A DNA stretch of 62,147 bases. It comes from a virus. Where the stretch lies: positions 1 through 62,147 of the IMG/VR virus record IMGVR_UViG_3300042868_003080; one strand, given 5' to 3'. The notes under the pieces are model-generated. The model did not search any database. It was not told the origin of the DNA and was given only the letters and a program-made list of their open reading frames with translations. This document shows, one piece after another, positions 38,343 through 62,147 of this stretch (within the stretch, counting starts at the first letter, position 1; the number at the start of each line of letters is the position of its first letter). A program made the position numbers and the translations under genes.

Positions 38343-38376
38343 ACCCTCGGCTGCCCACTCAGCCGAGGGTTTTTTA
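38343..38376 (+). terminator. Intrinsic terminator between convergent operons
   Basis: Perfect 11-bp stem ACCCTCGGCTG / CAGCCGAGGGT (38343-38353, 38360-38370), loop CCCACT, then TTTTTT-A-TTTT on the plus strand. It ends the replication operon. The minus strand has no T-run after the stem, so it stops mainly plus-strand transcription. Confidence 0.85.
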
Positions 38377-41300
38377 TTTTTCCTTCTTCACTTCGCTGTA
38401 GGTCTGGTTGAACGCTTTGTAGACGTCGTTCAGGGCGTCACGCTTATCTTGGACGCTGGCGTAATTGCCTTCACGGTAGTCCTTGTTGATGGTCTGTATC
38501 TCGGACAAAGCTGTATCAAAGGCATCCATAACACGCGTGTCAGCCTGCACAGGGAATGCAGCTTCGTTCTCAGCCCATGCTTCGGGTTCCTCGTCGGATT
38601 TTTTGTATGTACTATGGATCGACTTAAGACGGTCATAGTCTTGGTAGAACTTGTTCATCGGAACGTACTCGCCACCCTTACCGAAGTACGTGCTGACAAG
38701 CGGGATACGTTCTGCAAGTGTCTTATCCGGCTTAGCCTCTCCGGTCAGCAGGTCTAGGGTATCACGCCCAAAACCATAAGCACCTCCGAAAATCTGCTGG
38801 GCAATATACCGGTACTGTTCGGGTTGAGCGCTTCCGGCGGATTCCACCGTGTCGGTGCCCCCAAAGAGGGAGTTCATACCTCGCGCAATGAATTTCCAAA
38901 CTTTACCGGTCTCTTCACGTCCAAGTTCTGACTTTGGCTCAGTGTTGTACTCGCCTTGGGGTGTGTAGATTTGCGATCCGAAAGCATTCCGGTTAGCCAT
39001 TAAATCACGGAGCGGTTGCAGCCCTATGTCGGGGACGAGTAAGTCAACACCAGCGGATAACCCCTCAGTGCCTTCGGCTTTGATAGGGGACGCCAGACTT
39101 ACGAAACCCGTGACGATGTTGGTGGCTGCCTCCATGGGTTCAATGTCCTGCAAGAACATCGCCATAAGCTGGCCACCTACATAGTTGAAATAACCTATAC
39201 CAAAAGCGGTTGGGACGGATGCATAGTCGTTAATGCCGGGGCCATATCGGGCGATTACCCGCGTCTGGGCAGTTACGTTATTGACCTCAAGGATATTCGG
39301 ACGCCCGTCTTCGTCGTCATCACCTGCACCAGGGCCAAAACGGTTGAACAAGTAGAGCAGCATCCCTGCGCCGACCAATTTGGTGAATAGCTTACGTGCA
39401 ATTGTGCTGTATCGCCCTTGAGAGAGTAGTTTACGCGCACCCCCAACAGTCGGGCTAAAGAAGAAACTCCAGTTATCGAGGAGAGAGGCCATTTCGCCCC
39501 GACGGGTCATGTCCAACGTAGAGTCAAGGGCCAGCGCGGCTGCGTCTTCGCGGCTGATATTCACTTCGAGCGCCGCACGATAGGTGGCGAAACGCGCATG
39601 GAGATCGAAAAGCTGAGATGCATGGTCCAACGCACCCGCTACTGCATCCTTAGCTAAGAGTGCGGCAGCAATAGGGTCGGCGCGTTTGGCAGCGGCGTAA
39701 CGCTTGATGGTCTTGGCTGTGTCCTGCGCGTAGCGCTCCGCGTCCATAATCTGCGCATGGCCGACTGCGCCCCCGTCTTCGAGGAACTGGTCGAAGAGCA
39801 GTGCCATTAGCTCGCCTTCGGCTGTGGTCGGGTCCTTACCTTTAAGGTAATTCGAGATGGTGCCCATCCCGCTCCGCACGGCGGCGATATTTCGGAGGGT
39901 CCGCTTAAAGAGTTTGGTACCTTCTGCTGGACCACCCTTAATGCCTTGCGCAGCACGAGCCGTCGCAAGAGCTTCCGAAAAGTCGCGCAACCACGATACC
40001 CCAAAAGTGAAAACGGGGCTGTAGCGGGTCTTCATCGACTTAAGAAAACTCCCGACCTCCGCGATACTGGGAATACGCATATCCATATTACCTGCACGGA
40101 AAGAATACCCTGCATGCATAATCTGATCGAGAAGGCGCGGCGTCATATTACCAAACAGACGGTATAGCGCATTACCCGCTGGGGTTTCGGCGAACTCGAT
40201 GTAATAGGGTTCGCCGTCCTTCTTGACGATCATAAGGCTGGAGTCTTTTTGCGCCGCAATCTGGTTCATATCGACTGGACCAGCGGGGCCGATCTTTGGC
40301 ATTGTCACATGTCCGCCTGGATACGTCTTTTTCTTAGGCGTGTAGACCGTGACAAGGTCCTCGTGACTTTTAGGGTCGCTGAGTATGTTGTTGAGGAAAG
40401 TTTGTTTAACCTTGTTCTGCTCGATACGAGCAATAGCAGACTGCGCATCAGTCATGAGGTTGAAGAGCGGGTTGAACGGTATCGATTTACGGCCCCGAGT
40501 CGTCATCGCTTCGCGAACACGAGTACCATTCTTTTTGGCAATACCGCGTTCTTCGTCGCTATGCGGATTAGGCTCACCATCAACCTGCATATCACCGTCT
40601 AGTGCATAACCCTTAAGCGGTGTGTAGAACGGCTGCGCCTTACGCATGGCCTCCCAAACTTTCTTAGGTAGAAGCCCAGCTTTCACCCGCTGATTACCCA
40701 TATAATCCACAAGTGCATCGTGCAGCTTAGCAACCTCACGTAGTTTGGGGCCAAGCCCTTCAAGTTCAAGTTCGTCTAGCTTTGCCTGAGCCTGAGCATC
40801 CGACATCCCCGAGCCGTTTTCCTCACCGTTGCGTTCGCGGACCAGTGCGTTACGGGCAGGAGCGCTGCGCGCCCAGAGATACATAGCTATATCCGCCGGA
40901 TCGAGACCTAGTTCTACTACCTTGTCTTCAATAGGCTGGAGGTACCAGCGGTTAAGTCGCATCTGACCACCGATTTTACGGGTCTCCAGTAGCTCAAACT
41001 TGCGCGCTACGTCGAGATCGGCAGGTAGTTTGGTAACCCCATAAGCAGCCGATAGTGCACGGGAGTAATCATATGCGGTCTTATATTTGCCTTCGAGCCT
41101 ACGCCGACTCCTGCTCCACATGCTTTTGACACGACGTTCTAGATCGGCAGCGAAGCCGATAGCTTCCGCACGAGGACGGTTAAGCGCCGCAGGGAAGGCA
41201 CCCTCGATAGTGGTAGGATCAGCCTCTAACTGCTCTTCGATTGGGCTGATATCCTCTTCAGGATTATTGATCGTCTGCTTGGTAGCAGTAGGTGCGGGCT

Positions 41301-44300
41301 GTTCGGTTACTGGCGCAGCCGCTTTAGGTGTAGGGGAAGCTACTTTTACGGCATCCGCTTTAGCCATAAACTGCAAGGCGTCATCGGCAAATTTGTTTAG
41401 CGGGCCGTCGGATTTTTTGTTATTGTTAACGTCGGCTACCCACCGAGCCAAGGTTTCAGCAGTTTCTATAGCAGCACTGGGGTCAACGAACTGCGCGCCG
41501 CGCAGCCATATAGTAGCAGCGGCGGTGTTACCACGGTCACCATAAACTTTATCAGTGGTAGGAACCAACACCGATACCTGCGTACCTACAGTGCCGTCTT
41601 TGGCGATAAATTGCTCAACTCGTACATCAGACTGACTACCAGTGGGTCTAGGGCGTCCAGGTATATCGTACTGAATTACATCGTTCGGCACCCATGCAGG
41701 CTTCTCGGCACCCGCAACAGTGGCCTGCGACCCACCATCGTACCAGAAAGCTGACACAGCCATATTTTCATACGGTACCAGTTCAACAGGCGTACCAGCA
41801 GGTGCTTCTTCCGCTACAGGCGCTTCCTGCATTACCGGCGCTTCTTCGACCACTGGCGCTTCTTCGACCACTGGCGCAGCCTCTGCTGTCGGCGCTTCTT
41901 CGATTGCTGGCGCTTCTTCCTGTACAGTTTCCTGTACAACTTCATCGGCTACCGGCACTTCTTCCTGTACAACTTCTTCGATTACCGCTTCAGGCGCAGT
42001 ACCTCGTTCAATGATTTCCGCAGGAAGCCCACCAGGCTCAACAGGAAGCTGGGCAGTAGTTATGGGTTCAGCACTCTCCGCAATCTGTGCCTCAAGTGGT
42101 GCTGCATCTCCCCGCAGCATGCGGGTTTCTTCCACAGTCGGGTCGCCAAGCGCTGGGTTCTCGTCGAGCAACTCAGTAAACCCACGGTATTTATCCGTGA
42201 TGGTCGGATCAGCAAGCACTTGGCCCAGTAATTCCTGACGCCGCTGGGTGTACTCACCTTCAGGACCGAACACCGCATTCGCTGCTTCGAAGCCACCGAT
42301 ACGCTCAATCTCGTGCCGATAAAGCGGTTTATACCCTTTTTTGCGGAGCTTGGCATCGATACTCTCAGCTTTACCGACTACGGCGCGTCTGGCTTCAAGG
42401 GCTTCAATATTTTTGATTGCCCTACGTGCTGCGGGTATATTCTTATTTGGTTGAGCGTCTAACTTAGCCCGTTCGGCTGCAATCTGCGCATCGATAGCTT
42501 CTTGGGCAGCGAGTATCTCTTCCTCTCTCCCAGTAGGTATGCGGTCATCGTACAGCACACTCTCGATAATATTCACGCGGTCAACAAGCTGCTGCCGTTC
42601 AGACGTGTCCTTCTCTTGTCCTGCAGCCGTCTCGGCATCCGATTCCGCCCGCATAGCGTCATACAGTGATGCGACTTCAACGGGTGTAGGAGCGTCAAAA
42701 CCGTTCTGAACCATGAGGGCTTCGAAGGTTTCAACTTTATCGACGGAGTTAGGGTCATTCGCGATGGCGTTAAGAGTCGCCGCACGCTGCTCACGCATTG
42801 CACGCATCGTGTCAATCTGACTTTGGATTGCTTCGTCAGAGAGTGGCGCGGAGGTTTCAGTGCTTGTCGGTTGGTCTACATCAGGAGCAGTGCCCTCCAG
42901 AGCAGCCCCTTCAGGAGGTGCGGTGACGAGACCCACATACTCGTTGTTGAGCTTCACTGCCTCGTCGAGCACAAGCATGCGGGCAATTTTAGCATCTTCT
43001 GAAAGACGCGCCCTGCGTAGACCGTTTTGCTGCTTCTGGAGGTAGGTTTCCGTCTTCTCGGGGGTACCCAACGCCATGTTGTTATTGAGCGTCGTGGTTA
43101 CACTATTGATGTAGGACTGCATATCGCTGTCAGGTTCAGCGTTCCCAAGGGCACCAACAAGCCGCTGCGTAAGTGCGGGGGCAGAAAGAGTATCAGGGAT
43201 AGGTACAGCACGAATGCCCTCGGTCGGGGCACGCATGCGATATAGTTCTTTGAGTGATGTCTGATAGACGGTGCCGTCAGCGCGACGGGCGAGCACATCA
43301 CCATTTTCATCAGGCTCGGATATCCGCTGCACCTTCTGCCGCGTGAGTTGCGACGGGTCTTCATAGCTTCCGACGTTGACGTCAAACTCTTCAATGGGTA
43401 CGTTTGCCGCCGCTGTCTGTTCGAAAGCTTTTTTACGGTTATCCGCAGCGCGTTTACCAAGAACATTCGTAAGCTCGACACCACCGCGCAGACCACCACC
43501 GACGATTGCGCCGTACATTGCTTCTTCACCGACCCCTTCGGTTACATCTTTTTCGGGGTTGTACGTCGTCTGCTCGACAACATTTTGCGCCAGTTTTGCG
43601 CCGCCTTCCTGCGCACCTTCTTCAAAGGCGGCGACACCCACACGGCCCCGCGCAGTTTTCTGGATGTCGGCTACGAGCGCACGTGCTTCCGCTGCCGCAG
43701 CTTTTGGGGACATACCACCCACCTGCACGCGCTCCGCGAGGTTTGCGATTTTCGCTGTCATAGACCCACGCAAAGAAGACGGAACACGGGCCATCATAGT
43801 GTCTAGGGTGAGAACTTCTGTAGCACCGATAGCAGCGCCGAGAGACTGTGCGAATGCGCGCACAACAGGATTAACGGTCTTCCCTGTTTCAGCTTCGTAT
43901 TGTTCAACCGCCTGACGCTGTTGTTGCGCACCAGACCCTGCGCCTAATGCAAGTTGTGTCGCTTGTTCTGCCCGTGCGATTGTAGGGACAGCACGTGTAC
44001 CAGCGACAGCCATACCCGCACGAGAAGCACCACGGAGAGCAAACGCAGGTGCGACACTACCCGCTGCTTCAGAGAGCTTACGAAGTTGCCTAGCACCTGC
44101 ACCGAACTTAGCCGCGTCGCTCTCGTCAGGTGCAAGGTAGTTTTGGATTATCTGCTCACCGAATGCTTCAGATGCTTTACCTGGGGATTCAATACCCACC
44201 CCACCCAACAGACTAGGAAGACCTGTGACATACCGGACCGCACCAGCACCAAGCCCTTTGAGTTGATCCATAGCAGCTTGGCCGAAAGACCGTTCAGGCA

Positions 44301-44661
44301 CGAGGGTACCTGTGCGCTTTATATAGTCTAGTTCGGCTTGGCTGTCTTTGACAACCCCACGATACACATCTGTATACCGGTTAAGGTTCTCACGCATACT
44401 CTTGGTTGCGCCAGGTATTTTAGCCATCCCTTCATTGGTAGCAATACTTTTCTGGTTTCTAGCAATGTCGGCGTTAAGGGATTTAATCCGCTTAGCGATT
44501 TCAGCCGACGTCTCTGGGCTAGCTTGCCTGTTGGAGACGGGAGCATTGCCCCGCGAAGAGCCTTGGACAATCCTCTGAAGGTCAGATGCCGTAGACCCTT
44601 TCGGGGCGTCTATTTCGTAGCGCCTGCCGTTATAATCATATGTGTACCGATAGTTTGCCAT
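38374..44661 (-). CDS. Giant ejection/polyvalent protein with LPD38-like domain
   Basis: 2,095 residues, the largest gene. N-terminus MANYRYTYDYNGRRYEIDAP, helical Ala-rich region with SLGAAIGATEVLTLDTMMAR, then a Pro/Glu/Ala/Val low-complexity linker of EEAPVV-type repeats (DNA about 41800-41960). Residues about 1190-1850 (KYKTAYDYSRALSAAYGVTK, LRDFSEALATARAAQG, WSFFFSPTVGGARKLLSQGR) resemble the polyvalent-protein domain LPD38. A hydrophobic segment GAGMLLYLFNRFGPGAG lies near 1770. It is probably carried in the capsid and ejected with the DNA to form a channel. Confidence 0.65.
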   Translation of the reverse strand: MANYRYTYDYNGRRYEIDAPKGSTASDLQRIVQGSSRGNAPVSNRQASPETSAEIAKRIKSLNADIARNQKSIATNEGMAKIPGATKSMRENLNRYTDVYRGVVKDSQAELDYIKRTGTLVPERSFGQAAMDQLKGLGAGAVRYVTGLPSLLGGVGIESPGKASEAFGEQIIQNYLAPDESDAAKFGAGARQLRKLSEAAGSVAPAFALRGASRAGMAVAGTRAVPTIARAEQATQLALGAGSGAQQQRQAVEQYEAETGKTVNPVVRAFAQSLGAAIGATEVLTLDTMMARVPSSLRGSMTAKIANLAERVQVGGMSPKAAAAEARALVADIQKTARGRVGVAAFEEGAQEGGAKLAQNVVEQTTYNPEKDVTEGVGEEAMYGAIVGGGLRGGVELTNVLGKRAADNRKKAFEQTAAANVPIEEFDVNVGSYEDPSQLTRQKVQRISEPDENGDVLARRADGTVYQTSLKELYRMRAPTEGIRAVPIPDTLSAPALTQRLVGALGNAEPDSDMQSYINSVTTTLNNNMALGTPEKTETYLQKQQNGLRRARLSEDAKIARMLVLDEAVKLNNEYVGLVTAPPEGAALEGTAPDVDQPTSTETSAPLSDEAIQSQIDTMRAMREQRAATLNAIANDPNSVDKVETFEALMVQNGFDAPTPVEVASLYDAMRAESDAETAAGQEKDTSERQQLVDRVNIIESVLYDDRIPTGREEEILAAQEAIDAQIAAERAKLDAQPNKNIPAARRAIKNIEALEARRAVVGKAESIDAKLRKKGYKPLYRHEIERIGGFEAANAVFGPEGEYTQRRQELLGQVLADPTITDKYRGFTELLDENPALGDPTVEETRMLRGDAAPLEAQIAESAEPITTAQLPVEPGGLPAEIIERGTAPEAVIEEVVQEEVPVADEVVQETVQEEAPAIEEAPTAEAAPVVEEAPVVEEAPVMQEAPVAEEAPAGTPVELVPYENMAVSAFWYDGGSQATVAGAEKPAWVPNDVIQYDIPGRPRPTGSQSDVRVEQFIAKDGTVGTQVSVLVPTTDKVYGDRGNTAAATIWLRGAQFVDPSAAIETAETLARWVADVNNNKKSDGPLNKFADDALQFMAKADAVKVASPTPKAAAPVTEQPAPTATKQTINNPEEDISPIEEQLEADPTTIEGAFPAALNRPRAEAIGFAADLERRVKSMWSRSRRRLEGKYKTAYDYSRALSAAYGVTKLPADLDVARKFELLETRKIGGQMRLNRWYLQPIEDKVVELGLDPADIAMYLWARSAPARNALVRERNGEENGSGMSDAQAQAKLDELELEGLGPKLREVAKLHDALVDYMGNQRVKAGLLPKKVWEAMRKAQPFYTPLKGYALDGDMQVDGEPNPHSDEERGIAKKNGTRVREAMTTRGRKSIPFNPLFNLMTDAQSAIARIEQNKVKQTFLNNILSDPKSHEDLVTVYTPKKKTYPGGHVTMPKIGPAGPVDMNQIAAQKDSSLMIVKKDGEPYYIEFAETPAGNALYRLFGNMTPRLLDQIMHAGYSFRAGNMDMRIPSIAEVGSFLKSMKTRYSPVFTFGVSWLRDFSEALATARAAQGIKGGPAEGTKLFKRTLRNIAAVRSGMGTISNYLKGKDPTTAEGELMALLFDQFLEDGGAVGHAQIMDAERYAQDTAKTIKRYAAAKRADPIAAALLAKDAVAGALDHASQLFDLHARFATYRAALEVNISREDAAALALDSTLDMTRRGEMASLLDNWSFFFSPTVGGARKLLSQGRYSTIARKLFTKLVGAGMLLYLFNRFGPGAGDDDEDGRPNILEVNNVTAQTRVIARYGPGINDYASVPTAFGIGYFNYVGGQLMAMFLQDIEPMEAATNIVTGFVSLASPIKAEGTEGLSAGVDLLVPDIGLQPLRDLMANRNAFGSQIYTPQGEYNTEPKSELGREETGKVWKFIARGMNSLFGGTDTVESAGSAQPEQYRYIAQQIFGGAYGFGRDTLDLLTGEAKPDKTLAERIPLVSTYFGKGGEYVPMNKFYQDYDRLKSIHSTYKKSDEEPEAWAENEAAFPVQADTRVMDAFDTALSEIQTINKDYREGNYASVQDKRDALNDVYKAFNQTYSEVKKEK

Positions 44662-54124: not shown

Positions 54125-54307
54125 TTAGCCCCCGAGATATTGTGAAGCAGCGGCAGCTACAGTAGCGATGGTGGCAAGGATACCAGCCAGCTTAACTTTC
54201 CAGCCAAAGGCAGGTTTCGCTTCGCCGTCCATAGGAAGTATCTTACCTGCGGCTTTCCTTAGAAGCGCCTTTTCAGCTTCCTTCTTCAATGTGCTCTTAA
54301 AGTCCAT
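54125..54307 (-). CDS. Small membrane protein next to endolysin, 60 aa
   Basis: Start at 54307 (MDFKSTLKKEAEKALLRKAA) behind AAGGAGAACGACG. A basic helix first, then WKVKLAGILATIATVAAAAS forms one membrane helix at the C-terminus (about 39-57). Single-pass proteins of this plan beside a lysin are often holins or pinholin-like. The other membrane genes in the cassette make the assignment uncertain. Confidence 0.55.
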   Translation of the reverse strand: MDFKSTLKKEAEKALLRKAAGKILPMDGEAKPAFGWKVKLAGILATIATVAAAASQYLGG

Positions 54308-54318
54308 CGTCGTTCTCC

Positions 54319-54933
54319 TTATAACCAAGCAGCATACTTCTTGGTCTTAGCTTTACGGTCTTCGAGGCCGTGTGTACCACCATTAATACGCTTTGTCAGC
54401 GCAAGGATTGCAGCGTCGTTAATACCTTGGTCGCAGATGCTCCACAGCTTGTTTGCATCAAAGAACCACAAGGCGCTTTCAAAGCCCAGTTCGGTAGCCA
54501 CAAGGTCTGGATTGTCCAAAATCTCTTGTTCGCGGCCAATGTACCTACCGAATGCGCGGTAGTTGTTCTTCCCGGTGAGTTGTAAGGGGCCTCGACCCCG
54601 GTACAGCCACCCTTCGCCTGACGCTTCGTCACCATTACCCATGCGGTTTGCATATACGCGGTTGGCGATCTTCTGTGGCTGACGCTCGTAAGCCTTGGCC
54701 AGCGCATCGGTCGGAAAGTACTTCCCAAAGATGCTGCGCAAGCCCTTCGCGCCGTAGTTCAGGTTTTCGCTGAACGCCTTGAAGTTGCCGCTTTCGTGTG
54801 CCGTCTGGGCGAAGAAGTGCGCAGCGCGGTTCTTGTTTAGCTTAAAGTGGTCGCAGGCGGATTTCAATGTTCCCGGCCCGAACGCGCCATCTGGATGGCA
54901 TCCACATTTACTTTGAAGGTTCATTAAGCTCAT
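54319..54933 (-). CDS. Endolysin, GH19 chitinase-like lysozyme
   Basis: 204 residues from ATG 54933, overlapping the preceding stop by ATGA. CGCHPDGAFGPGTLKSACDH is a short peptidoglycan-binding-like start, then AAHFFAQTAHESGNFKAFSE and NLNYGAKGLRSIFGKYFP give the first catalytic Glu (47) and second Glu (56), and YRGRGPLQLTGKNNYRAFGR is the signature of the GH19 fold. It cuts the cell wall at lysis. No signal peptide, so it needs a holin. Confidence 0.85.
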   Translation of the reverse strand: MSLMNLQSKCGCHPDGAFGPGTLKSACDHFKLNKNRAAHFFAQTAHESGNFKAFSENLNYGAKGLRSIFGKYFPTDALAKAYERQPQKIANRVYANRMGNGDEASGEGWLYRGRGPLQLTGKNNYRAFGRYIGREQEILDNPDLVATELGFESALWFFDANKLWSICDQGINDAAILALTKRINGGTHGLEDRKAKTKKYAAWL

Positions 54934-55433
54934 TTGCCAGCACTCCGCCAATCAGGGAAATCGTTCGCATCGACCACGCCGTCTCCGTTGATGTCATACC
55001 GCAGGTCGCCGCGATACTTCTCCCAAGGCTCCATGTCGTCATCATCGTCATCGTTGACGCTCACTTCTGGCTCAATTTGATCGACAACGGAATTTGATGT
55101 TGCCGGATGAGAGACAACGTCAGTCAGTTCAAGTGGTGATTCGTGCGCTGGTGGTAGCGGCTCAGGCTCAGGGTCGTTGCGGTCCTCTGGTGGTGGTGGA
55201 ACCAACTCGCCCTTCATGCCCATCAGGGTGGCGTAGGAGCCAGCCACAGCGCCGACAACCGAAGTCATGACGTAGCTAAGGAGGCCGAATACGTCCTTGT
55301 TGTCGATGATTTCGTTCGACACGAACAGGCCAGCAATCATAGCGACGGTAATAGCAACGATAACAAACGCCATCGTGCGAGCAGCCATGAGAAGCGCCCT
55401 GATGCGAGCGTCCATTAGTTTATCTTCCATCAT
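54930..55433 (-). CDS. Holin-like membrane protein with EF-hand loop
   Basis: 167 residues. Two membrane helices (about 21-39, AFVIVAITVAMIAGLF; and 50-72, GLLSYVMTSVVGAVAGSYATL) then a long Pro/Glu-rich linker, a run of seven Asp-rich residues (NDDDDDDMEPWEKY), and DINGDGVVDAND (147-158), a full EF-hand calcium loop with Asp147, Asn149, Asp151, Asp155 and Asp158. It lies directly upstream of the endolysin. A holin whose soluble tail binds calcium is unusual; it may sense ions or link to the exported proteins nearby. Confidence 0.6.
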   Translation of the reverse strand: MMEDKLMDARIRALLMAARTMAFVIVAITVAMIAGLFVSNEIIDNKDVFGLLSYVMTSVVGAVAGSYATLMGMKGELVPPPPEDRNDPEPEPLPPAHESPLELTDVVSHPATSNSVVDQIEPEVSVNDDDDDDMEPWEKYRGDLRYDINGDGVVDANDFPDWRSAGK

Positions 55434-55953
55434 TATTCCTTTCTGCCAGAGGATTTTCTAGCGTCTTTTGGATACGTTCCTTCGTTTCAGCCTCAAGCTG
55501 CTTGATGCGACGCTGCTGCTCTTGGTCTTGCTGACGCAATTGCTCTATAACAGCGCGCTGCATGGCCATGTTCTGCGCGTCGCTGTTCCGGACGCTGCTC
55601 GACACCGCATCGACCGTCTGGCGCGTCCCGCTGACACTGCTGGAAATGCTGCCCGTCATATAATTCAGGGCTTCGCTGTTAATCTTGGTCAGGCGCTCAA
55701 CGCTTGTGACGCGCTCATCCAGAACCGAAATGCGGCCTTCGATACCAGATAGGTCTGGCGGCACATAGGCCGCCGTCACTTCCTTCATGGTCAAGAACTG
55801 CTGGTACACTTGAAAGCCAGCCCACAGGCCGCCGATAACCGTCGAGAACGCGGCGAAAATGATTGCGATCTTGCCGCTGCTTAAACCACCGATGTTGAAG
55901 CTAAAGCCGCTCTCGTCGAAGGCGACCTTGGGTTCTTCATCTGTACTGCTCAT
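55420..55953 (-). CDS. Membrane coiled-coil protein of the lysis cassette
   Basis: 177 residues: a short N-terminus, one membrane helix (about 26-47, SGKIAIIFAAFSTVIGGLWA), then a long coiled coil with GIEGRISVLDERVTSVERLT and AVIEQLRQQDQEQQRRIKQL. Shares end bases with both neighbours (14 and 17). Could be an inner-membrane spanin-like or lysis accessory. No lipobox is seen for an outer-membrane partner. Confidence 0.55.
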   Translation of the reverse strand: MSSTDEEPKVAFDESGFSFNIGGLSSGKIAIIFAAFSTVIGGLWAGFQVYQQFLTMKEVTAAYVPPDLSGIEGRISVLDERVTSVERLTKINSEALNYMTGSISSSVSGTRQTVDAVSSSVRNSDAQNMAMQRAVIEQLRQQDQEQQRRIKQLEAETKERIQKTLENPLAERNNDGR

Positions 55954-57424
55954 CTACCATCTCCTGCCATCGGGCATCGTTTGTCTGCATCAGTCGATAC
56001 AACTCAAAGTTTGCGTCTTGCAGCCTGCGCCTACGGTATATATCACGAATTGCGTAAAAGTCAGCCCTATCTTGCAACGACGCCTGCGTATACGCGGCGA
56101 AGCCCGGAACGGCACCCATCGCCGCGATTGTGTCGCTCTCGCCCTCAGATATTCCGCTGTCGGACTGTGGCTGATTTCCACCAGAGGTTGTGGGTTGAGA
56201 TGAGCCAAGACCCAGAACTTCAGCCGTGTTAGACATAGATAACGGACTACCCGCTGAGATTGCCATGTCCAAGGGTGACGCGCTCTGCGCCACAGACATA
56301 GTAGATACCTGCCCAAGCGCACCGCCGAATGTGGTGTCGAAGCGCACCTGTACTGTGAACGTGCTCGACGCCGATGCATCCTGCGCCTCTTGCATGGTGC
56401 CGGTTTGCTGTTGCGCGCCGCTCTGCGCCTGTTGCGTCTCCTGCATAAAGCTATCTTGCTGCTGCACGTTGTCTTCGAAGTCTACGCCTACTGCGGCCAG
56501 CGCAGCGACTTCATCAGGGTCCAACCGCTCAGCCTCATCGGCCTCAGCCACACTGACCTCTACGGCGTCCTCGACTTCTTCTATAGCAGCTTCAGGCTCT
56601 CCTACGAGTTCTACGACCTCAACGGCCTCCGCGACCTCCTCAGCCCGCTCCAGCGCAATCTCAGCGGCCTCTTGCACCTGCTCCATCACTTCAGGCTCAA
56701 GCTCCGCGCTTTGTTCAACGGCCTCGGCAATGGCAGCAACAGGGTCTGGGATGACATCGACACTGGCCGGTGGGCAGCTTGGGTCCATAGGCGTCACGTT
56801 GCAGTCAACAGTAGTGGCTGGCGCGATCCACGACAGGATGCCGGACTGGTTCTGGAGGAACTGCGCGTTGCGTCCGTAGAAAAGCGAGATGTTATCGTCC
56901 GCAGTTGGGCCAGTAATGCCTGCGGTGAAGGTGTGGCCCCCATTAAAACCCAAATTACCGTAATTGAGTTGTATCTTGCCGTCGGCAAAGAGGCCAATCT
57001 CGAAGGTGCTGCTGTTGTTTGTGCCGTATTCTTGGACGCCGTACCAGCCAAAGAGGATTGAGCCATCGTCGCGGCGATAAAAGGGGTTGCCAGTGAAGCT
57101 GATAAGGTCAGACCAGTAGGCGTAAATCGTGTTGCGCTGCGCCAGTTCGATAGGCTGACCATTGCAGCATAGATGATTGCCGCTCTGGAACGACACAAAG
57201 CCATTGCTCGACACCCAAGCGTCGGTGAATGTCTGGCCCCAATATTCAAACTCAAAACCAAGAGCCACGTTTTGCGTGTTATCGTCACCCAGATTGAGCG
57301 GCGTCATTGTCGTTGGAGCGCCATTGATCTGCGGTGGGATTAAGGCAGGCTCATAGGTCTGCGCGAAAACGGGTGTTGCGCAAGCCAGCAGAATAACCTG
57401 CAAAGCGTATGTCTTATTTCTCAA
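55937..57424 (-). CDS. Exported protein with nidogen (NIDO)-like region
   Basis: 495 residues if it starts at the TTG at 57424 (MRNKTYALQVILLACATPVF), overlapping the preceding stop by 11 bases; a TTG at 57475 adds 17 residues. KTYALQVILLACATPVFA-QT is a Sec signal peptide with cleavage near Ala21. The next 150 residues (FEYWGQTFTDAWVSSNGFVS, NTIYAYWSDLISFTGN, FEIGLFADGKIQLNYGNLGF) match the NIDO plan of extracellular adhesion proteins. A Glu/Ala-rich helix follows (EVAEAVEVVELVGEPEAAIE), then Ser/Gln-rich and a charged C-terminus. Exported in the host, function unknown. Confidence 0.6.
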   Translation of the reverse strand: MRNKTYALQVILLACATPVFAQTYEPALIPPQINGAPTTMTPLNLGDDNTQNVALGFEFEYWGQTFTDAWVSSNGFVSFQSGNHLCCNGQPIELAQRNTIYAYWSDLISFTGNPFYRRDDGSILFGWYGVQEYGTNNSSTFEIGLFADGKIQLNYGNLGFNGGHTFTAGITGPTADDNISLFYGRNAQFLQNQSGILSWIAPATTVDCNVTPMDPSCPPASVDVIPDPVAAIAEAVEQSAELEPEVMEQVQEAAEIALERAEEVAEAVEVVELVGEPEAAIEEVEDAVEVSVAEADEAERLDPDEVAALAAVGVDFEDNVQQQDSFMQETQQAQSGAQQQTGTMQEAQDASASSTFTVQVRFDTTFGGALGQVSTMSVAQSASPLDMAISAGSPLSMSNTAEVLGLGSSQPTTSGGNQPQSDSGISEGESDTIAAMGAVPGFAAYTQASLQDRADFYAIRDIYRRRRLQDANFELYRLMQTNDARWQEMVDEQYR

Positions 57425-58292
57425 CAGGGCGAAGCTCGACGTTCTCTGTCCACGCGGCGCGGGCTTCCTCACCAATCAATCCCAAGAATGGGCACGGTGT
57501 TCCGGCCATCTCCATTGCCCTAAAGACGCGGAAGTCTTGACATAGGAGGCTGACGGCGGCGACGCGCATGCCCATATCGTATAGGGTCTTGGACAGCTTC
57601 ATGCGTTCACAGTTTTGGTCACGCACAGTGCGCCCTGCTGACAGGCCAATGATTTGGGTCTGCACCGCGCCAGACTGGCCGGTGGTGCAAAGGTCTTGGC
57701 TGTAGGACATCATCGACGGTGCAATGGCACTGGGAGGCGGCGACTTAATGTTCTGGTCAATTACCTGCCGCGATACGTTTTCACTGTAGCTGGTGGACTT
57801 GCTGTCATTCACGTTGACGTTGTTGTTCTGGTTGACGTTGTTGCTCGTCTGACTGATCGTGCTTGTGTCGTTGTTTATATTCCGGTTTGTATTGTCGGAC
57901 GTACTGTTCACGCTCTGGTTGATCGTGCTGTTGCTTGTGTCGGTATTAATGTTCCGATTGGTGTTATCAGAGGTGCTGGCCGACGTGTTCTGATTAATGT
58001 TGGTCATGGTCCCAGAGTTGATATTCTGGTTCACGTTGGTGCTGGAGGTTGTGTTCTGATTGATGTTCGTCATCGTCCCAGAATTGATGTTCTGGTTCAC
58101 GTTCGTGTTGGTGTTCGTGCTAGTGGACGTGTTGTTGTTCGTGTTCGTACTAGTGGACGTATTGGTATTGGTATTGTTCGACGTGCTGTTGGTTGTCGTG
58201 TCGTAGACGTATGATATCGGCGCGCTCTGAGCGAGCACCATAGAAGTGCTGGAAATTACCGCACAAAGGGTAACGAGAGCACGCCGAAACAT
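57414..58292 (-). CDS. Exported Asn/Thr-repeat protein
   Basis: 292 residues from ATG 58292, overlapping the neighbour's stop as TAATG. MFRRALVTLCAVISSTSMVL-AQ is a signal peptide. Then about 150 residues of Asn/Thr/Ser repeats, including two copies of TNVNQNINSGTMTNINQNT and two of TSDNTNRNIN, like amyloid or curlin-type repeats. The C-terminal 100 residues are ordered with four Cys (DLCTTGQ, QNCERMK, LLCQDFR, TPCPFLG), able to form disulfides outside the cytoplasm. Precedes the NIDO-like gene. Role unknown. Confidence 0.6.
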   Translation of the reverse strand: MFRRALVTLCAVISSTSMVLAQSAPISYVYDTTTNSTSNNTNTNTSTSTNTNNNTSTSTNTNTNVNQNINSGTMTNINQNTTSSTNVNQNINSGTMTNINQNTSASTSDNTNRNINTDTSNSTINQSVNSTSDNTNRNINNDTSTISQTSNNVNQNNNVNVNDSKSTSYSENVSRQVIDQNIKSPPPSAIAPSMMSYSQDLCTTGQSGAVQTQIIGLSAGRTVRDQNCERMKLSKTLYDMGMRVAAVSLLCQDFRVFRAMEMAGTPCPFLGLIGEEARAAWTENVELRPVEK

Positions 58293-58654
58293 TACACTTC
58301 TCCAGTTGGTGGGGTAACCTCTACCCATGCCAGCGTGGCTTCATCCCAGTGATACAGCTTGCCGTCATCCGGTTGTGCTGTTGGTGCGTCCCAGAGGCAG
58401 GTGTTTTCGTTCAGCGTCCATGATGGGAATGGCTGCGGCGGAATAAACGCATCACGGCCCGCGTCGTAGGTATAACCGATGCCAGCGTAGTTTTTACGCA
58501 GCGGACGGCCTTCGGGATGTTGCCCACCGTGCGTGTTGTATGATGTCTGCACCCAAAGCGCAGGGTCTCCAAATAGGCCCGTGTCGATAACGTCCTGCTC
58601 GATGACCAGAACTTCGGTGACAATGCCGTCAATAACTCTTGCAAAATGTGCCAT
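58292..58654 (-). CDS. Tail fibre assembly-like protein, 120 aa
   Basis: MAHFARVIDGIVTEVLVIEQ, TSYNTHGGQHPEGRPLRKNY, AGIGYTYDAGRDAFIPPQPF, PSWTLNENTCLWDAPTAQPD, YHWDEATLAWVEV. The FIPPQP(F/Y)PSW.L...TC.W.AP....D...Y.WDEA...W pattern is widespread in marine phages next to fibres, resembling fibre-assembly chaperones. It follows the poly-Gly fibre gene by 9 bases. Confidence 0.7.
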   Translation of the reverse strand: MAHFARVIDGIVTEVLVIEQDVIDTGLFGDPALWVQTSYNTHGGQHPEGRPLRKNYAGIGYTYDAGRDAFIPPQPFPSWTLNENTCLWDAPTAQPDDGKLYHWDEATLAWVEVTPPTGEV

Positions 58655-58663
58655 GTGTTGTCC

Positions 58664-59869
58664 TTAGAATGTAATCGAGCCGGATGAGTTGAAGGTATAG
58701 ACAGTCAAATCCCCTGCTGTTGTAATTACAGGGGAACCTGTGGTTGATGTTGCGGGGATACGGCACGCTAAAACCACCCTGCCAGAACCACCTGCTCCGG
58801 TGCCAGAAACGTAAACACCACCCGCTCCCCCGCCCGTATTCGCAGTTCCTGAACCTGCGGCAATAGAATACGTGCCTCCGGCACCGCCACCGCCAGCGCC
58901 AGCGCCACCTTGGTAGTTATACGAGGCACCGCCGCCACCGCCGCCATATGTTATGGATGTTCCACTTATGGATGTGGCGCGACCCGCTGCGCCACTACCG
59001 GGTATCATCGCGCCAGAGCCACCGCCCCCACCGGTGTCAAAACCATTAGTGCCGTTAGCTGGCAACGCCCCGCCGCCGCCGCCGCCGGTATTGTATGTGT
59101 AATAAATATTGTCAACCCCGCCGTCTCCGCCGATACCTCCTTGTGTGCGGTCTGCGCCACCGGAGTTGCCACCATTAAAGCTGCCAGCAGTCCCCGCCAG
59201 CGCGGTATTTGACCTGAAAACACTGTTGCTCCCAGCAACGCCACTCGCGCCACCGGCTCCTACCGTGACTGTGAATGTCCCGCGTAAGAAATCTATCCCA
59301 CTAAACAACACGCCGCCGCCTCCGCCGCCTCCGCGACTACCTTGCCCACCGCCCCCAGCTACCACAGCGTAGGAGACCGTAACGGCTGGTAGATTTCCAG
59401 CTATAGTGTCCCAATTATCTGTGCCTGTTTTTAGAAGTTGAACGGAGCCACGTTGGGGGATGCTGCTAAACTCAAGGGGGGTAGTATTGCCGTTACGGTA
59501 GAGGTTAATACCCGTATTACCGAGCAAAATGGCGTTAGTTCCAGCGTTTACAACCGTGATCACTGTCCCAATCGGGAACGCAACTGACGCATTGGTCGGG
59601 ATTGTGATGGCCTGCGCGCCGGTATTGGCCGAGTATATTTGCTTGCCAGCATCGCCGAGAACCAACGTGTAGTTGCCACTTTGGACGTTCTGCGGGTACG
59701 CCACTACGCTTGCTGGAAGTGCGCTGGATGCCCACGCCGTGCCGTCGCTGGTCAGGACGTTACCGGCAGTACCGGGTGAAGTTAAGCCTGTACCACCATT
59801 ACCCGCAGGCAGTGTGCCTGACGCCGTGGATACACTTACCGGAGGAAGGATGCTTGAAAGAGTAGCCAT
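58664..59869 (-). CDS. Tail fibre with poly-glycine adhesin domain, 401 aa
   Basis: N-terminus MATLSSILPPVSVSTASGTL, then GNGGTGLTSPGTAGNVLTSD and a module (YPQNVQSGNYTLVLGDAGKQ, TIPTNASVAFPIGTVITVVN) homologous to that of two other fibres. The C-terminal half is made of Gly runs (GGGGQGSRGGGGGGGV, GGGGGGALPANGTNGFDTGG, GGAGAGGGGAGG) separated by variable loops, as in polyglycine-helix receptor tips of T-even gp38 adhesins, ending DLTVYTFNSSGSITF. Predicted receptor-binding tip. Confidence 0.8.
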   Translation of the reverse strand: MATLSSILPPVSVSTASGTLPAGNGGTGLTSPGTAGNVLTSDGTAWASSALPASVVAYPQNVQSGNYTLVLGDAGKQIYSANTGAQAITIPTNASVAFPIGTVITVVNAGTNAILLGNTGINLYRNGNTTPLEFSSIPQRGSVQLLKTGTDNWDTIAGNLPAVTVSYAVVAGGGGQGSRGGGGGGGVLFSGIDFLRGTFTVTVGAGGASGVAGSNSVFRSNTALAGTAGSFNGGNSGGADRTQGGIGGDGGVDNIYYTYNTGGGGGGALPANGTNGFDTGGGGGSGAMIPGSGAAGRATSISGTSITYGGGGGGASYNYQGGAGAGGGGAGGTYSIAAGSGTANTGGGAGGVYVSGTGAGGSGRVVLACRIPATSTTGSPVITTAGDLTVYTFNSSGSITF

Positions 59870-59919
59870 GATTATGTGCCTTCGTTAGTAATAGTCATCA
59901 CAAAAGTTCCTCTACAAAC

Positions 59920-60483
59920 CTATACCGTAAGCCACAGGTCGATACCTTGGCTATCAATACCACTACCGGCATAAACACTACTATCTGTAGTTATAGAAGC
60001 AGCAAAACTTGAGTATAAGTTGCTCGTAACATGGCTATATACGCTACCTACAAGAGTGCCATAAAAAGACCCTGATGTATATACTGATGCACCGCTAACA
60101 CACCCGAACTCTAAAGATATGGCATAGTAATCATAATTGGCTTCGCTAGACCCAGATATAGGAGTCGTTGACAACTGACCCCCAATAAACACTTCTGAAA
60201 CAGCCTGTAGATTGCTATAGGTAGTGCCACCTAAAGCCGAATAGGCAACATCCGTTCCGCTATCTCCCGGCCATGACGTGCCGTTTATAAAGGCATTTCC
60301 AAGATATATCCCTTTGCGCCCATTGTACCCATTTGTCACGGTAAATTGAACCGCCGTTGGAGCGTTGGGGCTTTTTAAGAAATACGATTGTCCTACAACT
60401 GTTTCAGCCGAAAACTGGGCAAGAGACGTAATGACAGCCGCTCCGCCTTTACCCCCTGCTAAGGCGCATAATACTCCAGTCAT
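59920..60483 (-). CDS. Fibre-associated protein C, 187 aa
   Basis: ATG 60483 overlaps the 751-aa fibre stop (ATGA). MTGVLCALAGGKGGAAVITS, then beta-rich with GQSYFLKSPNAPTAVQFTVT, YDYYAISLEFGCVSGASVYT. It shares the MTG(I/V)xCxLxGG start with 52164-52595. Both stand right after a fibre gene that ends in the same module, so the pair fibre plus cap appears duplicated. Function inferred. Confidence 0.6.
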   Translation of the reverse strand: MTGVLCALAGGKGGAAVITSLAQFSAETVVGQSYFLKSPNAPTAVQFTVTNGYNGRKGIYLGNAFINGTSWPGDSGTDVAYSALGGTTYSNLQAVSEVFIGGQLSTTPISGSSEANYDYYAISLEFGCVSGASVYTSGSFYGTLVGSVYSHVTSNLYSSFAASITTDSSVYAGSGIDSQGIDLWLTV

Positions 60484-62147
60484 GTCACGTTACCGGAGGC
60501 CACCCAAGTTGTCGCCGCAACCTTAACACATGTAGCAAGGCCATATTGAGCTAGTGTACGTGAACCTGTACTGGCTGCGCCCGCTAGGCGCAATGTGTCA
60601 GATGTAATCGAGATTGTCTGGTTAGACCCGCTATTGTTGAATATCACAATAGTTGTTCCGATAGGGAACGCAACCGAGCCGTTTGCCGGGATAACCACGC
60701 CGCCTGTCGTGATGCTGATGTGCTTGCCCTGATCGGCCAGTGCCAGTGTGTACGACGCCGTCTGGCTGTTCTGCGGCAGGCCGCGATAACCTATGGTGTT
60801 GGCAGCAATAGTGCCAGTCGCAGTAATTGTTACGTCTTGGTCGAGTGCGGTTATGTCCGTATTTGCACCTGACGCGGCAGCGCCAAGGGCTGTTAAGGCC
60901 GCTCCTGCTGTGGTTGCGCCCGTACCGCCGTTGGCGATAGGTAGTGTATCGGAGACTTCAGATGTAAGGCTAACGGTTCCAGTAGTGAAAGCCGAGGTGC
61001 CATTACCTTTAACAACACCCGTGAGCGTAGTCGCGCCCGTGCCACCACGTGAAACACTTAGTGTGCCACTAGTCTGGCTGTTAATATCTATTACACTCGC
61101 GCCTGCACCACCCGCCTGTGCAAACACGTTCCAAGTCGTACCGCTATAGACAAGCTGGACACTGACGTTAGAGATATTGCAGACAAGGTCTTCAGACAAA
61201 CCTTCAATGGTCGAACCATTGCGGCCAACCGTGAGGTTATTTGTGGCCCATGAACTAGCGGTATCAACAACGATAACCTGATCACCGACAGCTGGGGTAG
61301 CTGGAAGCGTAACCGTGAAGGCTCCGCCGCTGGTATCAGTCTGTACGCCCTCACTGTCAGCGGCGGTATAGTTAGATGTTTTGACCGTAGTGTACGTTAT
61401 GCCACCGGCTGATGGAGGTTGCGATGACCACACCGTGCCATCGCTGGTCAGGACGTTACCCGAAGCGCCGGGTGAAGTTACTCCTGTACCACCATTAGCA
61501 GCGCCAAGTGTACCTGTAATCTGCGAAGAAAGGTCAACATTCGAAAGTGTGCCGCCCAGCGTCAAGTTGCCAGACGAGGTCACGCTACCTGTTAGTGTGA
61601 TACCATTAACCGTGCCAGTGCCGCCAACAGTGGTTACCGTGCCTGCATTAGACGTATAGCCCGAAGGGTTACTCGCAGGGTATGCACCAAGGTTAGACAG
61701 CGCCGTAGCCGCGTCAGTGGCTCCTGTGCCGCCAAGGGCAACAGCTACAGGGGCGGTTAGGCTGAAGACCGTGCCAGTCAGTGTAAGACCGGTGCCCGCC
61801 GAATAAATCTGCGCCGACGATATCTGCGCAAACGTGATGTTTGTCGTGCCAAACGTAATCGTACCCTGCGTATTGCAGGTGTAGGTCTCGCCTGCGCCAG
61901 TCGTGCCCTGCTGAACAAACACGGTCGAACCTTCGCTCAGACCGTCTGGGCTGGCGTTGACAAAAGTGTCCGCGTCACTGGAGCGTGTCAGCACCCAGTT
62001 TGTTGAGCCAGAACCTACGCTTGTTACGACATAGATGCCGTTCTGGGTCTCATCGGTCTGCTCATAAACAAGGACGCGGTCAGCGACGCTAACCGTCACG
62101 CCGTCGATAACTAGCGCCGCTTGAGTGCCAGCATTAGTCAGGGTAGC
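60480..62147 (-). CDS. Tail fibre protein, C-terminal part (continues from the left edge)
   Basis: The open frame enters at the right edge and ends at 60480; joined to 706-1 it gives 751 residues. It contains RVLVYEQTDETQNGIYVVTS, many NGGTG(A/V)T repeats (ALGGTGATDAATALSNLGAY, ANGGTGVTSPGASGNVLTSD, SRGGTGATTLTGVVKGNGTS, ANGGTGATTAGAALTALGAA) and the C-terminal module RGLPQNSQTASYTLALADQG to LATCVKVAATTWVASGNVT. Phage fibre with a beta-rich shaft and a terminal module shared with the 303-aa fibre. Binds the host receptor. Confidence 0.85.
   Translation of the reverse strand, partial: ATLTNAGTQAALVIDGVTVSVADRVLVYEQTDETQNGIYVVTSVGSGSTNWVLTRSSDADTFVNASPDGLSEGSTVFVQQGTTGAGETYTCNTQGTITFGTTNITFAQISSAQIYSAGTGLTLTGTVFSLTAPVAVALGGTGATDAATALSNLGAYPASNPSGYTSNAGTVTTVGGTGTVNGITLTGSVTSSGNLTLGGTLSNVDLSSQITGTLGAANGGTGVTSPGASGNVLTSDGTVWSSQPPSAGGITYTTVKTSNYTAADSEGVQTDTSGGAFTVTLPATPAVGDQVIVVDTASSWATNNLTVGRNGSTIEGLSEDLVCNISNVSVQLVYSGTTWNVFAQAGGAGASVIDINSQTSGTLSVSRGGTGATTLTGVVKGNGTSAFTTGTVSLTSEVSDTLPIANGGTGATTAGAALTALGAAASGANTDITALDQDVTITATGTIAANTIGYRGLPQNSQTASYTLALADQGKHISITTGGVVIPANGSVAFPIGTTIVIFNNSGSNQTISITSDTLRLAGAASTGSRTLAQYGLATCVKVAATTWVASGNVT
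62030..62147. repeat. Terminal direct repeat, right copy
   Basis: Exact copy of bases 1-118. Merging the two copies yields a circle of 62,029 bp. Confidence 0.95.

Follow-up and report, generated by a model that had tools for sequence, protein, structure and literature searches.

A phage gene for a predicted exported protein with a nidogen-like domain belongs to a conserved three-gene cassette

INTRODUCTION

Why would a phage encode an exported protein with a nidogen-like domain? The question is raised by a 62,147-base IMG/VR virus record (the whole of this stretch of DNA is called the window here), in which an initial annotation had placed such a gene next to the lysis genes. NIDO domains have been described in bacteria, and there are precedents for phage adhesins that are exported. 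A literature search turned up no paper on NIDO proteins of phages and none on a marine phage protein rich in asparagine, and the papers that mention pelagiphages together with spanins do not, as far as their titles and abstracts go, concern the genes described here. We have analyzed the gene, termed B, together with its neighbors A and C (Table 1). The three-gene unit A-B-C appears to be undescribed.

Table 1. Positions in the window of the cassette genes, their domains and the neighboring lysis-type genes
Feature	Positions	Strand	Basis
Gene A, predicted exported protein with Asn/Thr/Ser repeat and four-Cys helical domain	57414..58328	(-)	upstream of B in 73/73 loci
Gene B, predicted exported nidogen-like protein	55937..57475	(-)	maximal ORF; candidate starts none ATG; >110 relatives; dN/dS
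B signal peptide core (..ALQVILLACATPVFA before QTYEP)	57362..57427	(-)	alignment; crude signal-peptide test
B front domain, beta-sandwich of NIDO-like type; vicinal CC (LCCNG) conserved	56828..57361	(-)	AF2; hhalign to bacterial NIDO
Cys pair DCNVTPMDPSC in B	56774..56806	(-)	sequence comparison
B linker, acidic, Ala/Glu-rich then Gln/Ser-rich low complexity, variable length	56138..56767	(-)	alignment
B C-terminal ~60 aa, conserved, ends QYR	55940..56122	(-)	alignment; HMM
Gene C, coiled-coil protein with one predicted N-terminal membrane segment, ending in NPL	55420..55953	(-)	48/50 loci
Holin-like protein, two apparent membrane segments, EF-hand-like C-terminal loop (YDINGDGVVDANDFPDW)	54930..55433	(-)	sequence; neighbor, outside cassette
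GH19 endolysin, neighbor	54319..54951	(-)	PF00182 E 2.4e-12; phrog_181 E 4e-64
Small protein, one C-terminal membrane segment, possible lysis accessory, neighbor	54125..54328	(-)	sequence

RESULTS

Gene B and its export signal

The maximal open reading frame of B comprises 512 amino acids when counted from its first TTG. Its candidate starts are TTG at 57475, GTG at 57472, TTG at 57424 and TTG at 57403. In a sister group of relatives, the MLTAA group, B starts at an ATG, at the position of which the window has ACG; together with the non-ATG candidates, this leaves the true start of B uncertain. The initial annotation had given the gene an extent of 55937-57424. The end at 55937 stands, and the TTG at 57424 is one of several candidate starts in a frame that continues to 57475. 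The hydrophobic core ahead of the QTYEP cleavage region is kept with every candidate start, although only just with 57403. By a crude signal-peptide rule, a Sec-type N-terminus is present in 42 of 56 distinct B relatives compared to 52 of 266 background ORFs, and several of the B proteins failing the rule are members of a group with uncertain start codons. Such an N-terminus would imply export at least to the periplasm.

Two scans of IMG/VR viral contigs yielded at least 110 and at least 130 relatives of B, respectively. The dN/dS values are 0.06-0.15 for the front domain, 0.05-0.17 for the C-terminus and 0.15-0.21 for the linker where computable. Low dN/dS values in a family of more than 110 relatives indicate that B is a selected protein and not a chance ORF. 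It is well supported by sequence that gene B is real and that its product can be expected to be exported by the infected cell. The relatives, the dN/dS values and the signal-peptide rule, as well as the profile comparison described below, support the original proposal that this phage gene encodes an exported nidogen-like protein.

The front domain is a remote relative of NIDO

No significant Pfam or PHROG match was obtained for the B protein of the window, a search of the window genome with the NIDO family PF06119 returned none, and Pfam and PHROG scans of the B relatives gave nothing significant. The three strands quoted as NIDO-like in the initial annotation are all found in the ORF translation. 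One phage relative (L177) matches PF06119 weakly, with an E-value of 0.0064 and 16.9 bits against a cut-off of 25. A genome scan located domains 28-38% identical to the B front domain in secreted bacterial proteins, often in tandem, the carriers being Planctomycetes, Actinobacteria, Zixibacteria and Cloacimonadota. The vicinal CC motif of the B front domain also occurs in the planctomycete repeats. Six of the ten bacterial regions tested match PF06119 at E <0.01, below the cut-off, and a seventh at 0.019. The genomes of those bacterial matches hold PF06119 proteins above the cut-off, and the phage B profile matches these same proteins. Alignment by hhalign of the phage profile to six regions from the above-cut-off bacterial NIDO proteins resulted in a probability of 99.3% and E 9e-21, which is a single-template value and optimistic, the boundaries of the NIDO regions having been set with the phage HMM. 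An unrelated control alignment in the same comparison scored 0.2%.

The AF2 model of the B front domain, based on a 39-sequence alignment and including flanking residues, is confident and all-beta (pLDDT 88.1, pTM 0.83). Nothing significant was retrieved when this model was searched against the PDB with Foldseek (best E 0.79), where there is no solved NIDO-like comparator. Against BFVD, Foldseek retrieved A0A6J5P7T5, an uncharacterised phage protein 86% identical to the B front domain, and the other significant matches are a few distant uncharacterised viral proteins. The structure prediction called for by the initial annotation has given a confident all-beta model that does not contradict a NIDO fold, the comparison with NIDO being one of profiles and not of solved structures.

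By these profile comparisons, the B front domain is a remote NIDO homologue. It shares strand motifs, a W-D motif and length with the NIDO domain (PF06119) of nidogen and of bacterial secreted proteins. It differs in that the B protein of the window lies under Pfam detection and in that the domain is present as a single copy on a phage-specific linker and C-terminus. The NIDO identity proposed earlier thus holds as a remote relationship, traced through the family profile, the bacterial intermediates and weakly L177, but not as a Pfam match of the window protein itself.

Modular architecture of B

In the alignment of the B family, the front domain is conserved, the linker is variable and acidic or of low complexity, and the last 60 residues are very conserved. 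Many marine B proteins have tandem Cys repeats (C..NPLY...C.GY..AY) between the front domain and the linker, and the DCNVTPMDPSC segment of the window protein looks like one degenerate copy of such a repeat. The tandem repeats in the B proteins of L185, L192, L208 and L211 are ~20-30 residues long and belong to no Pfam or PHROG family.

The B proteins examined for their front domain numbered 68, one from the window, 58 from IMG loci and 9 from named phages. An HMM of the front domain detected the NIDO type in 50 of them and not in the remaining 18, a share that may be inflated, since the sample was drawn from the 80 loci most similar to the A domain of the window. An HMM of the C-terminus, built from NIDO-type members only, finds 8 of the 9 non-NIDO IMG B proteins, including the L216 type, at 47-80 bits. 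For gp53 of HTVC115P the same HMM gives 20.9 bits, with E 1.7e-5 for a nominal database of 1000 sequences; none of the eight remaining B-position proteins of named phages is found by it, and the B-position gene in two roseophages and MW202481 may be unrelated to B. A modular B, with a swappable beta front domain (NIDO-like in most members, other predicted beta domains in some) on a shared C-terminus, is well supported by sequence. At the search sensitivity applied, none of 50,697 annotated phage records gave a match to B or to two divergent relatives, with the exception of divergent B genes reached through A, and the isolated C-terminus gave one chance match (E 6) among annotated phage records.

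Gene A encodes an Asn/Thr-repeat protein

The likely start of A is at 58292. In the A protein of the window, a 137-residue Asn/Thr/Ser repeat is combined with a helical C-terminal domain that has four conserved cysteines (57417-57698). By the same crude rule, a Sec-type N-terminus is found in 51 of 56 distinct A proteins, against the background of 52 of 266 ORFs. Across relatives, the repeat has a median length of 156 aa and a maximum of 464, with 36% Asn and 27% Thr. Asn residues recur at a spacing of two at 1.64x the expected rate and at a spacing of one at 0.72x. Such alternation would resemble an extended beta strand or Asn ladder, as in amyloid or beta-solenoid sequences. The AF2 model for A is of low confidence (pLDDT 68).

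The A pattern gave at least 600 matches in IMG/VR viral contigs, at least 595 of them confirmed. The C-terminal domain of A also matches the Pelagibacter phages HTVC115P, HTVC023P, HTVC202P, HTVC033P, Mosig and Baldr, the roseophages CRP-207 and CRP-810, Votkovvirus S28C10 and two Manatee Spring phages. A search with the A domain of 385 genomes of the class of genome G029 matched only one already known MAG, and A therefore looks phage-restricted. A close cassette relative on a 4.1 kb Alphaproteobacteria MAG contig (L217) was binned in a 1.4 Mb alphaproteobacterial genome, which may point weakly to the host group or may be an artefact of binning.

Membership of A in the T4 Spackle family, considered on the basis of a PF25676 match at E 0.14, was rejected after hhalign to T4-type Spackle proteins gave 1.1%. 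Spackle is also absent among the PDB matches of the A HMM and among the Foldseek matches of the low-confidence A model. No curlin is found among the Pfam matches of A up to E 10, and A, B and C match no CsgG family there.

A, B and C form a fixed unit

A lies upstream in all 73 B loci with room upstream, and C lies downstream in 48 of 50. B follows A wherever the contig is long enough, the loci without B ending within 2.2 kb. These counts indicate that A-B-C is a fixed unit in phages of several kinds. The carriers include Autographiviridae, the T4-like Mosig, other isolates and contigs of up to 170 kb. In the window, C overlaps the end of B by 17 bases; a membrane segment is apparent in C and its tail is coiled-coil-like, as read from its sequence. 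The order A-B-C, sometimes with a small gene between, is seen in HTVC115P, HTVC023P, HTVC202P, Baldr, Mosig and Votkovvirus S28C10. In the examined Pelagibacter phages and S28C10, the next large gene after A encodes a protein of 430-610 residues with an apparent beta-type front, an acidic linker and a helical end, and within a few genes after it comes a putative small membrane/coiled-coil protein ending in NPL. The order linkage of the three genes, as well as the predicted Sec-type signals of A and B, is well supported by sequence.

The cassette genes are annotated as hypothetical, doubtfully (lysozyme, TonB, DUF2730, OmpA, carbohydrate binding), or not at all. The C homologues of two roseophages, CRP-810 gp51 (L115 6162-6584) and CRP-207 gp73 (L117 3292-3873), carry the annotation 'lysozyme', which is apparently wrong. 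The gene between A and C in these two phages is without recognisable kinship to B. Downstream of the cassette, L200 and L168 have bacterial-looking genes (a twin-arginine-type exported protein and a TonB-like C-terminal protein), which suggests a prophage edge or a chimeric contig. Downstream of C in L177 are a class-3-lipase-like protein (GHSLGGALAELTALKLH) and a small lipoprotein.

Neighboring lysis genes and the search for spanins

The adjacency to lysis genes noted in the initial annotation is confirmed by the GH19 endolysin (Table 1). The EF-hand-like loop YDINGDGVVDANDFPDW of the holin-like neighbor is also present in the relatives L141 and L161. Tail-fibre-like genes occupy 58664-62099, with the cassette directly downstream. 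Elsewhere in the window, the product of 38374-44661 (2095 residues) contains LPD38 (PF18857), a domain that belongs to the very large polyvalent proteins of phages.

Comparable surroundings are found in several relatives. As judged from sequence, L133 has a GH19 endolysin in the cassette context, and in HTVC023P a peptidase M15 comes directly after C. In S28C10 and HTVC202P the cassette immediately or nearly immediately precedes the large terminase gene, and in Baldr C is directly before the terminase. In T7, the holin, Rz and Rz1 genes (17.5-18.7) lie between tail fibre and terminase, which is a comparable place. The cassette of S28C10 is also close to tail-fibre-like genes. In the T4-like Mosig the cassette is beside neither lysis genes nor, in the stretch read, structural genes, and in L163 it adjoins an Hsp20-like gene and is probably not beside lysis genes.

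A lipobox scan, in which the controls lambda Rz1 and T7 18.7 were recovered, detected no plausible lipoprotein of the outer-membrane spanin type in the window, HTVC202P and S28C10, or in the 50 kb covered in each of HTVC115P and HTVC023P. HTVC019P, which gave no match to A, is likewise without a plausible spanin lipoprotein, so that cassette-bearing phages are not the only ones to lack it. L133/L216 has the cassette as well as an apparent Rz/Rz1 pair, and other small lipoproteins are near the cassette in L169, L177, L205 and L212. The idea that the cassette replaces a missing spanin is weakened as a genomic correlation by HTVC019P, which gave neither a match to A nor a plausible lipoprotein, and by L216, which has both cassette and apparent spanin pair. 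Considering these same two cases, the link between cassette and lysis is suggestive only. A search with PF03245 over 19 records found none; the apparent Rz of L216 was missed too, making this null result uninformative. B as the partner in a canonical two-component spanin was excluded, B having no lipobox.

DISCUSSION

We tentatively favor, as a possibility somewhat short of an even chance, that A-B-C is an inner-membrane-tethered, exported envelope complex produced late in infection, with help in lysis, possibly in opening the outer membrane, as its likeliest use. That B is accompanied by an exported Asn/Thr-repeat protein and a coiled-coil membrane protein, both conserved, suggests such a tethered complex more than a free adhesin. 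We infer the complex, its topology, its ligand and its timing, the last from the gene neighborhood only. B would be the exported ligand-binding arm of a three-protein complex made late. C would be anchored in the inner membrane, its coiled coil extending into the periplasm, and the C-terminus of B would dock on C, or on A. The acidic linker of B could span the periplasm, with the front domain gripping a glycan or protein that is specific to the host and belongs to its cell wall or outer membrane. Without a lipobox in B, attachment to the outer membrane would depend on such a putative ligand. The Asn/Thr repeat of A, with its alternating Asn, may form extended beta structure or a filament in the same space. 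Our guess is that the cassette acts at lysis with holin and endolysin to disturb the outer envelope or tie it down, and so does the work of spanins with parts that are not spanins.

The comparison with the Rz/Rz1 spanins (lambda; T7 18.5/18.7) has two sides. The cassette resembles them in its position near endolysin or terminase and in the pairing of C, with one predicted N-terminal membrane segment and an apparent coiled coil, with a predicted exported partner. However, this partner, at 430-1070 aa, is a beta-domain protein that lacks a lipobox, the unit invariably includes a third gene, A, and PF03245 is unmatched, in what is an insensitive test. More doubtful is the larger proposition that A-B-C constitutes an unrecognised envelope-breaching or -remodelling machine of aquatic phages that works without lipoprotein spanins. 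Its parts would be an exported Asn/Thr-repeat protein, an adhesin whose front domain can be exchanged, and a coiled-coil anchor in the inner membrane.

A surface adhesin or fibre, with A and B leaving or spanning the outer membrane to coat or aggregate infected cells or to bind lysis debris, is in our view unlikely. Domains of the NIDO-like and other beta types are typical extracellular binding modules, the bacterial relatives of the B domain sit in secreted proteins, and the composition and Asn spacing of the A repeat are as for an amyloid or beta-solenoid strand. There is also a precedent in the phage-encoded curli of pelagiphages, exported adhesion systems in aquatic phages whose role is debated (PMC9599517, PMC7029224, PMC9004378). 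The cassette is like these T8SS genes in encoding predicted exported proteins of adhesion type in aquatic phages, in a block moving between unrelated phage families. It differs in having a membrane coiled-coil protein instead of CsgG, CsgF and curlin. A cassette without an outer-membrane secretion channel or anchor, in which C is nearly always there and inner-membrane-like and A has no curlin Pfam match, argues against a surface role, as does the fact that no clumping was reported for a phage with curli pore genes (PMC9004378).

Superinfection exclusion in the periplasm, in which A (and B) would keep a second phage's injection apparatus from working, as T4 Spackle does, appears improbable. The cassette is found among late genes, whereas Spackle (gp61.3) has been described as an early product (PMC7677548). 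Although A is, like Spackle, a predicted secreted protein with a Cys-containing helical domain and came near to PF25676 in Pfam, it has no detectable homology to Spackle in the profile comparison and the PDB searches described above. Still less probable is a virion component, in which A, B and C would enter the particle as a fibre or an injected membrane device with their signal-like N-termini unused: the cassette lies close to tail-fibre-like genes in the window and S28C10, but signal peptides are retained in A and B over divergent relatives, tailed-phage particles assemble in the cytoplasm, and the Mosig cassette is away from structural genes in the stretch read.

For the tethered envelope complex that we tentatively prefer, the isolated cassette-bearing phages are direct targets for genetics and proteomics. 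The cassette is represented in the confirmed IMG/VR contigs carrying A, at least 595 in number, and in cultured SAR11 phages, yet its genes are annotated as hypothetical, doubtfully or not at all. A predicted exported adhesin with an interchangeable binding domain and a kept anchor would bear on the ways in which these abundant phages, where recognisable spanin lipoproteins were not found, break through, modify or shield the host envelope.
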